Shown here: in pieces, positions 6,276 to 11,615 of the stretch
Numbering within the stretch: the stretch's first letter is position 1
Layout: each line of letters starts with the position of its first letter
Source: a virus
IMG/VR virus record: IMGVR_UViG_3300009165_000016
Span: 1 to 33,250 of that record
DNA length: 33,250 nucleotides
Direction: 5' to 3' (one strand)
Translations under genes and position numbers: made by a program
The notes under the pieces: model-generated
Databases searched by the model: none
Seen by the model: the letters and a program-made list of their open reading frames with translations, nothing else
What the model was told of the DNA's origin: nothing

Positions 6276-7091
6276 GTGCCAGTTAGACCTCGTAGAATAT
6301 CAGAATTTAAACCGATAGTCACTAACCTTGCACAAACATCTCACTATGAGGTTAGGTTTGGTGGACTTCCATCGCAGTTAATATTCTATTTGGGGGAAAG
6401 AGGAGTCACACCAAGATTTATTTCTGAAGATGCTGGTCTTTTATGTAATAACGCAGTTCTTCCAACAACACAACTTGCAACTGTAGATATTGCTGGAAAC
6501 TATATTGGAATGACAGAAACATTTGCTCACCGTAGGCAATATCAGGATATAAGTCTTGAGTTTTATGTTGATAAAAATTATAATACGTTAAAATTTCTAG
6601 AGCATTGGATGGAATTCATTGCAAGTGGATCATCATATCCAATTAATGGAATTCATCCTCCAATTAATGCAAATGTTGATGAGGGATATTTCATAAGAAT
6701 GCAATATCCAGAATATTACAAATCAAATCGCACAAGAATTGTTAAGTTTGATCGTGATTATAATAGGGAAATAGAATATACTTTTATAGGACTCTATCCA
6801 TATTCAATTGCTTCGATACCTGTATCTTATTCGAGTTCTGATACTTTAAAAGTGCAAGCAACATTTAAAATGGATCGCTATGTTGTTGGTAAAGCATCTA
6901 GTTTGGATGTTTTCAATGTTCAAAATAATAACATAGTCCCAACACAACCACAAACTACTCCACCAGTAAGACGACCAGTTTTAGTTCCAAGGTCTCCCGG
7001 ATCTATTCCTGCAAATGGTGTCGAATTATTCCCACAAGGACAAACTTTATACGAGTCACTTTATGGAACTAACTTGCAAAAGTACAGATAA
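6276..7091 (+). CDS. 54: gp54-like baseplate tail-tube initiator
   Basis: 271-residue protein with a tail-tube-like fold, most like T4 gp54 (320 residues), the last hub protein added before tube polymerisation. The core resembles tube protein gp19 and its relatives: SHYEVRFGGLP, then DIAGNYIGMTETFAHRRQY, QDISLEFYVDKNY and FLEHWMEFI. The C-terminal 60 residues are rich in Pro, Gln and Arg and look extended. The start is GTG at 6276, because no ATG occurs in frame until well inside the conserved core; TAGG about eight bases upstream may serve as a weak ribosome site. gp19 itself is an alternative, but the length and the hub context favour gp54. Confidence 0.78.
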   Translation: MPVRPRRISEFKPIVTNLAQTSHYEVRFGGLPSQLIFYLGERGVTPRFISEDAGLLCNNAVLPTTQLATVDIAGNYIGMTETFAHRRQYQDISLEFYVDKNYNTLKFLEHWMEFIASGSSYPINGIHPPINANVDEGYFIRMQYPEYYKSNRTRIVKFDRDYNREIEYTFIGLYPYSIASIPVSYSSSDTLKVQATFKMDRYVVGKASSLDVFNVQNNNIVPTQPQTTPPVRRPVLVPRSPGSIPANGVELFPQGQTLYESLYGTNLQKYR

Positions 7092-7119: not shown

Positions 7120-7839
7120 ATGCCATTACCCCAAATTGCGACTCCTTCGTATACTTTAGAACTTCCATCAATTAAGAAGGAGATAAAATATAGACCATTC
7201 CTTGTCAAGGAAGAAAAAATCTTGATCATTGCGATGGAAAGTGAGGATTCTAAGCAAATTGCTGATGCAGTTAAAAATGTAATTAGCAATTGTATTCTTA
7301 CCAAAGGAGTTAAAGTCGATCAACTCTCTACATTTGATATTGAGTATTTGTTTTTGAATATCCGTGGAAAGTCTGTTGGTGAAACAGTTGATGTTTTAAT
7401 CACATGTCCAGATGATGGAAAAACTCAAGTTCCGATTAGCATTAATCTTGATGATATTCGAGTTGTTGTAAATGAGAATCATTCTAGAGATATTAAACTG
7501 GATGATAGTTTGACATTAAGAATGAAATATCCATCCATGCAAGAGTTTGTTAAAACCAATTTTGGAAATGACTTCAACATTACAGTCGATCAAACGTTTG
7601 ATCTGATTGTTTCATGTATTGAGCAAGTTTATAGTGAAGAAGAGTCTTGGACAGCATCTGATTGTACTAAAAAAGAACTTTCGGATTTCATTGAGCAGTT
7701 GAGTTCAAAACAGTTTAAGCAAGTTGAAAAGTTTTTTGAAACTATGCCAAAACTTTCTCACACATTAAAAGTGAAGAATCCAAACACAGGAGTTGAAAGT
7801 GAAGTTCTATTGGAGGGATTATCAAGTTTTTTCGCCTAG
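7120..7839 (+). CDS. 26: gp26-like baseplate hub / tail assembly protein
   Basis: 239-residue protein of the T4 gp26 baseplate family. The signature N-terminus MPLPQIATPSYTLELPS leads into KKEIKYRPFLVKEEKILI, followed by helical segments. In T4, gene 26 works in hub assembly and precedes gene 51, as here. ATG 7120 is preferred to GTG 7114 because the family normally starts at MPLP, although the TAGGTG sequence at 7111-7116 is close to it. The last codons hold a slippery heptamer T TTT TTC (7827-7833), with an upstream GGAGGG and a downstream hairpin, so a fraction of ribosomes may shift to -1 and make a 298-residue gp26-gp51 fusion. This resembles the paired tail assembly chaperones (gpG/gpGT) of other tailed phages. 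Confidence 0.92.
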   Translation: MPLPQIATPSYTLELPSIKKEIKYRPFLVKEEKILIIAMESEDSKQIADAVKNVISNCILTKGVKVDQLSTFDIEYLFLNIRGKSVGETVDVLITCPDDGKTQVPISINLDDIRVVVNENHSRDIKLDDSLTLRMKYPSMQEFVKTNFGNDFNITVDQTFDLIVSCIEQVYSEEESWTASDCTKKELSDFIEQLSSKQFKQVEKFFETMPKLSHTLKVKNPNTGVESEVLLEGLSSFFA

Positions 7840-7866
7840 GGATGGCTCATGAAAATCTTGAGTCAT
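7812..7866 (+). promoter_or_regulatory. Predicted -1 programmed ribosomal frameshift signal (gp26 to gp51)
   Basis: Three elements are arranged as in E. coli dnaX. GGAGGG at 7812-7817 is an internal Shine-Dalgarno sequence. Nine bases later comes the heptamer T TTT TTC at 7827-7833, in the gp26 frame as X XXY YYZ. After an 8-base spacer, a hairpin pairs 7842-7849 with 7859-7866 (8 bp, one G-U pair, 9-base loop). A -1 shift reads TTT TTT CGC CTA GGG ATG and enters the gp51 frame without meeting a stop. Confidence 0.75.
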
Positions 7867-8015
7867 ATTATAAAACTAACTTTGCTCTCATTCAGCACCA
7901 TAAATATTCATTGACTGAAATCGAAAATATGATACCGTGGGAGAGAGAAGTTTATATTGCCCTTCTTAAACAATACATCGAAGAAGAAAACATAAAGAAC
8001 GGTACAAATGGCTGA
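7842..8015 (+). CDS. 51: gp51-like hub assembly protein, likely made as gp26 frameshift extension
   Basis: 57-residue frame resembling the small protein annotated as gp51 (baseplate hub assembly catalyst) in T4-like cyanophages; characteristic parts are LIQHHKYSLTEIENMIPWER and a helical acidic C-terminus. The PWER-x-xY pattern also recalls the T domain of tail assembly chaperones. ATG 7842 is a poor independent start: the nearest purine-rich stretch (TAGGG) touches the ATG, and GGAGGG lies 24 bases away. The upstream frame is joined by the -1 frameshift signal in gp26, so the main product may be a gp26-gp51 fusion. Its 3' end overlaps the next gene by eight bases. T4 gp51 is much longer (249 residues from memory), so homology to the T4 protein is uncertain. 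Confidence 0.8.
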   Translation: MAHENLESYYKTNFALIQHHKYSLTEIENMIPWEREVYIALLKQYIEEENIKNGTNG

Positions 8016-9735
8016 ACAAGTAGCTCCCGAAAATGTTGAAAGATCTGGAATTGATCCAACTAAGGGATCTATTTTGTCTCAAGATGCTAGAAATGATCTA
8101 TTCAGAAGATTTACAGTCGAATCTTCTGTTTTTAGAAATCAACTTACATCTTTAGAAAGTACAAAGAGAGAAGAAGACTTAAAAAATACTTCTGCTATTC
8201 AAGAGCAGGAACAAATCCTTGTTGGTGTTAATTCGAATATTCAGTCCCTAAGAGAAGACATTGGAAGATTAGGGACAGGTCTTGCTAGCATCGCACTTCT
8301 TCTCCAACAAGACAGTGCTGAAGAGCAATCAAGAACTAGAGCAGAACAAGAAAGGCAAAGAAGGTTAGCAGAACAACAAATAAGAATTGGAAAAGAAAAT
8401 GAAATAGAAGAAAGAATACAGAATGCTATTTTGGAACCTGTGCAGAGATTGGTTCCAAAAGTAGATGATATTTTTGGAAATATTGGTAGAGCACTTGGAA
8501 TTTTATTTGGTGGTTGGTTAACTAATCAAGTTGTCCAAGCAATAAGAGCATCTGAAGAAAATAATACAAAATTATTCAACGATATTAAATTCAATATTAT
8601 TAAGAATCTGGCAATTGTTGGTGGAGGTTTATTTGCAATCAGAGCAGGATTTTCTCTTATTGGTAGAACGATTAAATCTATTGCATCTGGACTAACCAGA
8701 TTACTCATTGCAAAACCACTTGCGATTGCTGCAGCATTACTTCCTCGGGTTGGATCTGGCGGTGGAGGAGGAAAACCTTCTGGTGGAAAACCTTCTGGTG
8801 GGGGAGGAATGCTTGGATTAATTGGTAGTGTAATAACTGGGGTCACTGGAGCACTGAATTTTTTAAATGGTGAAAATGTTGATGCTGCTCTTGCTGCATT
8901 GTCATTTGTTCCTGGTGGTGGAATATTTAAACTTGCTAGAGTTGCTGCTGGAACTGTATTTACACTTGATCAAATTGCAGAAGCACTTGGTAAAAACTTT
9001 ACTGGTGCAGATCCAAAACTTTTAGAACAAAAAAAGAAAGAATTAGAAGAAGCAAAAAATAAAGAAAAACAAAAACCCACTTCTTCACCTAAAATAACGC
9101 CTACTTCAACTCCTACACCACCAGCACCTGCTCCATCATCAACTCCCACATCATCAGAACCTGCAGCAGCACCAACTCCTACACCACCAGCACCTACAGC
9201 ACAACCTCAGACACCAATGATGGGTGAGCAGAAACCATCAACTCCTGCTCCAAGTCCTGATATGGTTTCTAAGTTTGAGCAAGCATGGCAATATAGAAAC
9301 AATCCTTTTGCTAGAGGAAGAATTGAAGATGCTTGGGGCAAAATGACTCCTGACCAAAAACGACAAGCAAAAGAATGGGCATCATCAAAGGGATATGATT
9401 GGAAAGAAATGAAATTGCCAGATGCTCCAGCAGCTGCTATGGCAACACCTGCAACTCCTGCAATGATATCTGGTCAATCTGAGTCTAAACCACCTGAACC
9501 AACTGGAGCATCTCCAGCACAGATGACTCCACCTTCTAAAGAACCCACACAGGTTGGACAATTACCAGAACCAAAACCATCTTTGACAATGATTGCAACA
9601 TCAAATAATGCAAATCAAAATGCTAATCCACCAATAACAAATGGTGCATTAACTGATGTTCCATTTATCAATTCTTCAAACCCTGATAACTTCTATGTTT
9701 TATATTCACAACTAAGTTATAATGTGGTAATGTAA
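8008..9735 (+). CDS. Tape-measure-like virion structural protein
   Basis: 575-residue protein, not firmly assigned. Residues about 20-145 are charged and probably coiled-coil (QEQEQILVGVNSNIQ, RAEQERQRRLAEQQIR). Residues about 150-250 hold hydrophobic helices (IGRALGILFGGWLTNQ, NLAIVGGGLFAIRAGF), and 275-330 another Gly/Ala-rich hydrophobic segment. A Pro/Thr/Ala-rich linker follows (about 350-405), then a small charged module ending WASSKGYDWKEM. Length is near T4 tape measure gp29 (590 residues), and the gene sits where T4 has genes 27-29, so a tape measure or tail-lumen protein is the best guess. The next protein shares a similar FGGWL / FAGWI hydrophobic motif. It overlaps gp51 by eight bases and ends two bases before the next start. 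Confidence 0.85.
   Translation: MAEQVAPENVERSGIDPTKGSILSQDARNDLFRRFTVESSVFRNQLTSLESTKREEDLKNTSAIQEQEQILVGVNSNIQSLREDIGRLGTGLASIALLLQQDSAEEQSRTRAEQERQRRLAEQQIRIGKENEIEERIQNAILEPVQRLVPKVDDIFGNIGRALGILFGGWLTNQVVQAIRASEENNTKLFNDIKFNIIKNLAIVGGGLFAIRAGFSLIGRTIKSIASGLTRLLIAKPLAIAAALLPRVGSGGGGGKPSGGKPSGGGGMLGLIGSVITGVTGALNFLNGENVDAALAALSFVPGGGIFKLARVAAGTVFTLDQIAEALGKNFTGADPKLLEQKKKELEEAKNKEKQKPTSSPKITPTSTPTPPAPAPSSTPTSSEPAAAPTPTPPAPTAQPQTPMMGEQKPSTPAPSPDMVSKFEQAWQYRNNPFARGRIEDAWGKMTPDQKRQAKEWASSKGYDWKEMKLPDAPAAAMATPATPAMISGQSESKPPEPTGASPAQMTPPSKEPTQVGQLPEPKPSLTMIATSNNANQNANPPITNGALTDVPFINSSNPDNFYVLYSQLSYNVVM
8770..8799 (+). repeat. 15-bp tandem repeat, two copies
   Basis: GGAAAACCTTCTGGT occurs at 8770-8784 and again at 8785-8799, coding GGKPSGGKPSGG in the Gly-rich linker of the tape-measure-like protein. 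Likely expanded by slippage and length-neutral for the frame. Confidence 0.9.
9108..9195 (+). repeat. 22-bp direct repeat in Pro/Thr-rich linker
   Basis: An identical 22-base unit (AACTCC followed by TACACCACCAGCACCT) lies at 9108-9129 and 9174-9195, 66 bases apart, in frame. It encodes the PTPPAP-type linker. Such in-frame duplications allow easy linker-length change. Confidence 0.85.
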
Positions 9736-9737
9736 TC

Positions 9738-11615
9738 ATGGCAGCAGTATCAGAGTCTTTAAAAAAATCATCGATTAGCGTTGAAAATATTTCTAAGTCT
9801 TTATTGTCTACAAGAAAGACTGTTTCTTCAGTAAATGATTCTGTAAATAATATATCTAAGATTATTTCAACTAATACTAGAATTAAAAGAGAACTATTTT
9901 CCACATCAGAAACCATTGATGCCAGAAGAAGAGAGGCATCTAAGAGAAGGGAAATGGAAGATCAGATTGAAGCTTCAAAATTATCTTACTCTCCCGGATC
10001 TGCTATTTCTTTTGCATCCAAAGGTCAGGGTGGTCCTTTGAGTAGATTATTAGGATTTTTGGGATTTACATTTGCTGGTTGGATAGTAGAAAATTTACCC
10101 ACTTGGATTTTTATGGGTAAAGAATTTATTTCAAGAATTCAAATATTTGGTAGATCAATGTATGATATGGTAGATAATATGAGATCAATCATACAATCAT
10201 TTGGATCAGTTTTAACTAATTCATTTGATGCTATTCTGAGACTTGATTTCAATGAATTTAGTGAAGGAAGTGTTGCTAGATCTTTTGATGAATTAAATCT
10301 TGCAGTTCAGGGTTTGGGTGATGATATTACTGAAACATTTAGACTTTTCACAACACCACTTAATGAATCTGTAGAAACTGGAGAACAAGCACCCGGACTT
10401 GAAGAGGAAAGACCAGAGACAATGTTTCCTCCTATTTCTCAACCGCAAGGATCTCAACCACAAGGATCAATTACATTTACTGGACCTGAGACAACTTCTT
10501 CTGGGGTTTTAAACCCACAAGCAGCATATGCTCATCTAAGACAACTTGGAGTTTCTCATATACATGCTCTTGGCATTTTAGCAAACATAGAGGGGGAGAG
10601 TAGTTTTAAAATAGGTGCAGATGAAACTGGGAAAGGAACAGCAGGAATAGGATTATTTCAGTACACATTCCCAAGTAGAAAAAATAGATTCTTACAAGCA
10701 GTTCCTGATTATAAAACTAATTGGAAAGCGCAAATAAATTATGCCATAAAAAATGATGAAAATACTCCATTGTATTTGAAAAAACAATTCAGCACTCCTG
10801 AAGAAGCGGCTGACGATTTTATGAGAAACTGGGAAAATCCATCTAAAAGTGTTTACACTGAAAGAAGAAGAAAACATAATCAATTTATTAAGAATTTTAA
10901 AACACCAACTGATCAACAACAAAAACCTATAGTTACTCCACAAACTCAAACTTCCCCACCACCACCTTCTCCTATACCATCTATTCCAGTCAATCCAATG
11001 ATTGGTGATCGTCTTGGTGCAGGAAGAAATCATGGTGGTGTTGACTTACAAGTAGAAGAGGGAACACCATTAAGAGCAATTTCTGATGGAACTATTGTTG
11101 ATTCGGATTTTGAAAAAAATTGGGGAAACTTTTTAGTAATGAAAGACAATATGGGAATTTATCATTTATATGGGCACATGCAGTCTGGTTATAAGCGTGG
11201 AGGACCAGTTAAAAAAGGTGAAATAATAGGTAAAGTTGGAATGACTGGAAGAACTACCGGACCTCACTTGCATTGGGAAGCAGGTACTGGATGGAATCGT
11301 AGTGTAATAACGGGAAGATTTGATGCCCTTAATAAGTATAGTAAATTTGCACCATTCAATACCCAACCAAGTAAGGATGGTAAAACAGAAACTCCTGCAC
11401 AAATCTCAGCATTACCAAAAGCGGGACAACCTGCTGCTGCAATGACTCCTGAAAGAAAAGGGTCTGAAGTTATGTTTATTGATGCTACTCAACCACAAGC
11501 ACCTCAAGTATCATATCCAGCACAGCAAGCAGGTCCACAAATTCAAGTTGATCAGTCTAAGATGTTAAATAACTTTATCAAGAAAAAACTTCTGCTAGAT
11601 TTAGCTTATACGTAA
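9738..11615 (+). CDS. Tail-associated murein hydrolase: lysozyme plus M23 peptidase domains
   Basis: 625-residue structural protein with two cell-wall enzymes. Residues 1-75 are coiled-coil; 100-135 hold a hydrophobic FGGWL-like segment (FTFAGWIVENLPTW). Residues about 258-387 resemble a phage tail lysozyme domain, with LANIEGESSF (E285, E287 candidate catalytic acids) and GIGLFQYTFPSRKNRF. A Pro-rich linker leads to an M23 (LytM-like) zinc peptidase at about 418-525: HGGVD (H432, D436), YGH (H480) and GPHLHWE (H510, H512) are all present, so it looks active. It probably opens peptidoglycan during DNA injection, a job done in T4 by the lysozyme domain of gp5. It ends TAATG, overlapping the gp27-like gene. 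It could alternatively be a second tape-measure protein. Confidence 0.88.
   Translation: MAAVSESLKKSSISVENISKSLLSTRKTVSSVNDSVNNISKIISTNTRIKRELFSTSETIDARRREASKRREMEDQIEASKLSYSPGSAISFASKGQGGPLSRLLGFLGFTFAGWIVENLPTWIFMGKEFISRIQIFGRSMYDMVDNMRSIIQSFGSVLTNSFDAILRLDFNEFSEGSVARSFDELNLAVQGLGDDITETFRLFTTPLNESVETGEQAPGLEEERPETMFPPISQPQGSQPQGSITFTGPETTSSGVLNPQAAYAHLRQLGVSHIHALGILANIEGESSFKIGADETGKGTAGIGLFQYTFPSRKNRFLQAVPDYKTNWKAQINYAIKNDENTPLYLKKQFSTPEEAADDFMRNWENPSKSVYTERRRKHNQFIKNFKTPTDQQQKPIVTPQTQTSPPPPSPIPSIPVNPMIGDRLGAGRNHGGVDLQVEEGTPLRAISDGTIVDSDFEKNWGNFLVMKDNMGIYHLYGHMQSGYKRGGPVKKGEIIGKVGMTGRTTGPHLHWEAGTGWNRSVITGRFDALNKYSKFAPFNTQPSKDGKTETPAQISALPKAGQPAAAMTPERKGSEVMFIDATQPQAPQVSYPAQQAGPQIQVDQSKMLNNFIKKKLLLDLAYT

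Follow-up and report, generated by a model that had tools for sequence, protein, structure and literature searches.

Tail assembly chaperones produced by -1 frameshifting were reportedly described by Xu, Hendrix and Duda in 2004, and the slip heptamer of lambda is G GGA AAG. A frameshift in tail gene E/E+E' of the contractile phage P2 was reportedly described by Christie et al. in 2002, and the P2 slip site is a T run, T TTT TTG. The heptamer of E. coli dnaX is A AAA AAG, and the shifted product of dnaX is truncated. Frameshifted tail assembly chaperones are well known in other tailed phages and, according to papers citing the work (PMC10885494, PMC12846349), the chaperones of T4-like phages were identified in 2022 by Vladimirov, Gautam and Davidson (Virology 566:9-15). 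PMC3004832 counts T4 gp26 and gp51 among the hub assembly chaperones. The initial annotation of the DNA studied here knew of no accepted case for T4-type gp26/gp51, a view that was already out of date; a literature search for gp26/gp51 frameshifting itself found no direct report.

The window, which is the whole stretch of 33,250 nucleotides of viral DNA that was analysed (IMG/VR record IMGVR_UViG_3300009165_000016), contains a tail-tube-like gene, gp26, gp51 and a large ORF, in this order. The features of the locus are as follows.

6276..7091, + strand: tail-tube-like gene upstream of gp26 (phrog_45, PF23849)
7120..7839, + strand: gp26, predicted short chaperone form, 239 aa (Pfam T4_baseplate PF12322, phrog_150)
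7812..7817, + strand: Shine-Dalgarno-like GGAGGG inside gp26, 9 nt 5' of the heptamer
7827..7833, + strand: slippery heptamer T TTT TTC in the gp26 frame
7837..7839, + strand: gp26 stop TAG, end of the short form
7842..7866, + strand: candidate stimulatory hairpin, arms 7842-7849 and 7859-7866, 8 nt past the heptamer
7833..8015, + strand: -1 frame extension, 60 aa, which includes gp51 (phrog_634 match)
ATG 7842 to 8015, + strand: gp51 ORF, 57 aa
7120..8015 (7120-7833, then -1 from 7833), + strand: predicted fusion, long chaperone form, 298 aa; junction region SSFFRLGMAHENL
8008..9735, + strand: 575-aa ORF downstream of gp51, tape-measure candidate by position only

The gp26 gene starts at ATG 7120 and ends in AGT TTT TTC GCC TAG, which assigns TTT of the heptamer to the P site and TTC to the A site, two codons ahead of the stop. 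Read in the -1 frame, the same bases become TTT TTT CGC CTA GGG ATG and enter the gp51 ORF without a stop, giving a fusion of 238 + 60 = 298 aa. The initial annotation had proposed GGAGGG nine bases before an in-frame heptamer, an 8-bp hairpin eight bases past it and a stop-free reading into a 298-residue fusion, and all of these were recovered at the positions listed above. In profile searches, gp26 matched PF12322 (E 1.1e-76) and the window gp51 matched phrog_634 (E 1.4e-26). The 575-aa ORF found no match in a family search, and its identification as a homologue of T4 gp29 was rejected, as the comparison gave E 0.046 over 26 columns, which is no match; judging by its position, it may be a tape measure or hub protein. 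At 9738-11615, the window also contains a 625-aa ORF in which a phage tail lysozyme domain is joined to an M23 peptidase domain.

Taken together, gp26 and gp51 very probably constitute one tail assembly chaperone gene that is read in two ways through a -1 slip, similar to G/GT. Most ribosomes would stop at the gp26 TAG and release the 239-aa short form, and some would be held by the internal GGAGGG and, in the clade of the window, by the downstream hairpin, slip back by one base on T TTT TTC and go on to translate gp51, producing the 298-aa long form. The two forms would act like lambda G and GT in tail or hub assembly. The sequences themselves show the signal elements, their conservation, the -1 reading and the homology of T4 gp51 to the whole fusion; slippage, its rate and the chaperone function are predictions. 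The short gp51 that cyanophage genome records list as a gene of its own most likely forms the C-terminal end of a frameshifted protein.

A bare TTTTTTC heptamer is common in AT-rich DNA. The window contains 12 copies on both strands against 20.9 expected from its dinucleotide content, a deficit that would fit avoidance of slippery runs at other sites. The window has a single GGAGG followed by 10 nt and TTTTTTC, where 0.01 would be expected. All 80 close relatives among viral contigs possess T TTT TTC at the corresponding position and a -1 frame open to gp51. The junction set was widened with divergent queries and 16 named phages to 276 loci with 200 distinct junctions, 197 of which carry T TTT TTN in frame, between one and a few codons ahead of the gp26 stop, with C (157), A (20), T (18) or G (2) as the last base. 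T TTT TTN is retained in 18 of the 21 clusters at 50% protein identity, and its carriers include Kyanoviridae cyanophages, a Methylophilales phage, Sinorhizobium and Rhizobium phages, Cronobacter S13, Aeromonas AS-szw, Stenotrophomonas Ps15 and KVP40-type Vibrio phages, some with ~25% protein identity. In the distant Cronobacter S13, Aeromonas AS-szw, Vi01 and ORM_20, the -1 frame likewise leads into a gp51-like ORF. Alignment of the junction, which the initial annotation had put forward as a check, finds both the heptamer and the -1 phase conserved.

The base that precedes TTT TTN is invariably T, although the codon to which it belongs varies between AGT, TCT, AAT, GCT, GAT and GGT. TTT occupies the P site in 82 of 82 sequences, the highest conservation among the 55 two-fold codon columns, whose median is 0.76. 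NNT TTT is kept in all 63 heptamer-bearing clusters at 80% identity, for which log10 P given the amino acids is -21.9, with shared ancestry only partly removed by clustering at this level; at 50% clustering the same odds are 10^-5.5. Amino acid constraint alone does not account for this pattern, and the conservation goes well past what chance would give.

The lineages without T TTT TTN are Vibrio K355 (L091), Kuttervirus with related phages (L298-L315, L319) and Vibrio BX-1 (L316), which possess CTT TTC, R ATT TTC and GTT TTT, respectively, at the position of the heptamer, and in each the -1 ORF is conserved. NTT TTY is common to all of them, and the A-site Phe tRNA can re-pair there, as at the similar site of T7 gene 10. 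R ATT TTC, GTT TTT and CTT TTC are possible non-canonical slip sites.

Across 84 representatives, pairing to the anti-Shine-Dalgarno sequence forms a single sharp peak just 5' of the heptamer, with a mean of -6.8 kcal/mol, and the GGAGGG of the window sits at the offset of this peak. A Shine-Dalgarno-like element lies directly 5' of the heptamer in most relatives. Glutamate within this element is encoded by GAG in 46 of 68 cases, compared to 26% elsewhere (GAG 46 : GAA 22 versus 481 : 1365; Fisher p 2.6e-12). The hairpin of the window comprises 8 bp, including one G-U, and has an MFE of -10.1 kcal/mol, a folding stability that is unremarkable (z only -1.4). In 30 relatives from the clade of the window, 96% of cells are paired, and nine of the 30 exhibit a compensatory change from U-A to G-C; on the gene tree this pair underwent three changes with zero one-sided intermediates. 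Distant relatives show no common downstream structure, and the hairpin was rejected as a universal part. The deep part of the predicted signal is thus the heptamer with the Shine-Dalgarno-like element, and the hairpin is a local addition of the window's clade. Conservation of the accessory elements, which the initial annotation had proposed to check, holds for the upstream element in most relatives but not for the hairpin outside this clade.

A search for the phrog_150 family in 20 phage records, one of them T4-type, found two gp26-like genes in the T4-type record and one in each of the other 19, and in seven of these 19 the downstream gp51 gave a short match of its own as well. The T4-type genome encodes gp26 (208 aa) on the opposite strand, next to a separate gp51 gene (250 aa, one ORF). 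T4-type gp51 aligns to the frameshift fusion over its full length, junction included (hhalign E 2e-11, against 0.007 for the best of 200 shuffles and 0.18 for the reversed sequence), whereas T4-type gp26 aligns to the short form only. Similarly, T4 gp51 covers phrog_150 positions 13-281 (E 1e-87), T4 gp26 covers positions 14-235 only, and the window gp51 matches positions 239-278. At least 80% of the fusion was covered in 1334 phage records. T4 gp51 thus corresponds to the whole fusion and T4 gp26 to the short form, and T4 makes both forms from two genes. T4-type gp26 (L277:439-1065) also weakly matches phrog_1140, the family of the baseplate hub distal subunit T4 gp28 (E 1.4e-4), which hints at a third relative.

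The ancestral chaperone locus of the T4 supergroup may have been frameshifted, with a Shine-Dalgarno-assisted slip on T TTT TTN; this is a tentative reading, somewhat less than an even bet. Under it, T4 would be a derived exception in which the slip was replaced by a duplicated gene, and Ackermannviridae would have kept the -1 fusion with another site (R ATT TTC or GTT TTT). The broad distribution of the heptamer, rather than a tree, is the basis for taking the frameshifted state as ancestral. If true, one family would exhibit three routes to the same protein pair.

A free gp51 could be produced, in addition or exclusively, by termination at TAG 7837-7839 and reinitiation at ATG 7842, which we regard as unlikely. 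This ATG lies 2 nt past the gp26 stop and is retained in 52 of 53 members of the window's clade; L024, in this clade, has lost it. Public records give gp51 as a gene of its own. However, the ATG is also part of the hairpin stem, and across a wider range it is missing in over half of the relatives, where the heptamer and the -1 phase are still kept: 113 of 199 lack any ATG within eight codons of the heptamer, and 88 of 199 lack ATG, GTG and TTG alike over this distance. Fusion is therefore the sole obvious route to gp51 expression in those 113 relatives. Most Kuttervirus loci, with their different site, also have no ATG close to the gp51-like -1 ORF. Reinitiation also leaves both the silent-site conservation of T TTT TTN and the fused T4 homologue unexplained. 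In the public records, gp51 is sometimes truncated from an internal ATG, as in S-RIM12 and S-RIM8 (L083, L084), and sometimes missed altogether, as in S13, AS-szw, Vi01 and ORM_20 (L093, L090, L097, L318), where the -1 gp51 ORF is present and unannotated.

Slippage of RNA polymerase on the T run, leading to mixed mRNAs and hence to the fusion, is very improbable. The signal is a T run, and the run does reach eight T's in some relatives (Melnitz type), but six T's are short for this process, the run is no longer than that in most relatives (T6C in 157 of 197), and the Shine-Dalgarno-like element and hairpin act on ribosomes. That gp26 and gp51 are two independent genes, with a heptamer that reflects a Phe-Phe motif, is hardly credible even though both residues of the FF pair are conserved and TTT makes up ~70% of Phe codons, since the odds of an invariant preceding T with a P-site TTT are ~1e-22 (80% clustering) or 10^-5.5 (50%) given the amino acids, a fused protein exists in T4, and a chance heptamer is rejected by silent-site conservation.

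Frameshifting and a G/GT-like chaperone pair with a -1 fusion, as first proposed in the initial annotation, are thus supported by the conservation of the junction and its -1 ORF, the alignments to T4 gp51 and gp26, and a weak likeness in fold. A structure model of the window gp26 (pLDDT 86) was compared with the PDB, taking the fold of 2OB9, 3FGX and 3KLU as the chaperone fold. Among the matches listed, the only chains above a probability of 0.5 were two of 2OB9 (0.66, 0.69) and one of 3FGX (0.57), with E about 1; a second model, of KVP40-type gp26, had a best fold-match probability of 0.35. Both 2OB9 (HK97) and 3FGX are described as tail assembly chaperones (PMC9603447). Among those matches, the predicted gp26 fold thus weakly resembles only known tail assembly chaperones, which is suggestive only. 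A sequence comparison of gp26 with the solved chaperones gave no match. Weak Pfam matches to Phage_TAC_3 and Phage_TAC_7, the latter at E 0.02 in one of 56 members, were discounted, as 93 families matched at that threshold.

Cyanophage gp26/gp51 is, as a very well-supported prediction, a new example of frameshifted tail chaperones and not a new kind of system. It shares with E. coli dnaX the three-part layout of an upstream Shine-Dalgarno-like element, a heptamer and a downstream hairpin, and the element lies about 10 nt upstream as in dnaX. The dnaX comparison made by the initial annotation holds for this arrangement but not beyond it: the heptamer is T TTT TTC rather than A AAA AAG, the hairpin and its covariation are found within the window's clade only, and the shifted product is longer, unlike that of dnaX. 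P2 gpE/E+E' is likewise a frameshifted tail gene with a T-run slip site, with homology limited to the one weak Phage_TAC_7 match. Lambda G/GT and other -1 frameshifted chaperones likewise have a short form and a minor frameshifted long form, and in both the lambda type and the window the locus lies near a tail-tube-like gene and the slip a few codons before the stop. The gene order of the window resembles that of lambda, with the large downstream ORF a tape-measure candidate by position only. There is no significant sequence similarity to lambda G/GT or to HK97 gp13 (PDB 2OB9), and the window differs from the lambda type in its much larger N-terminal protein and its T TTT TTC heptamer. T4 gp26 and gp51 belong to the same family (PF12322, phrog_150) and form a short form and a long form, the latter being the short form plus a C-terminal part. 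T4 encodes them in two separate genes without a heptamer, whereas a single locus in the window would yield both by the predicted -1 slip, and, side by side, the two arrangements allow a natural comparison of the ways in which phages set the short-to-long chaperone ratio.
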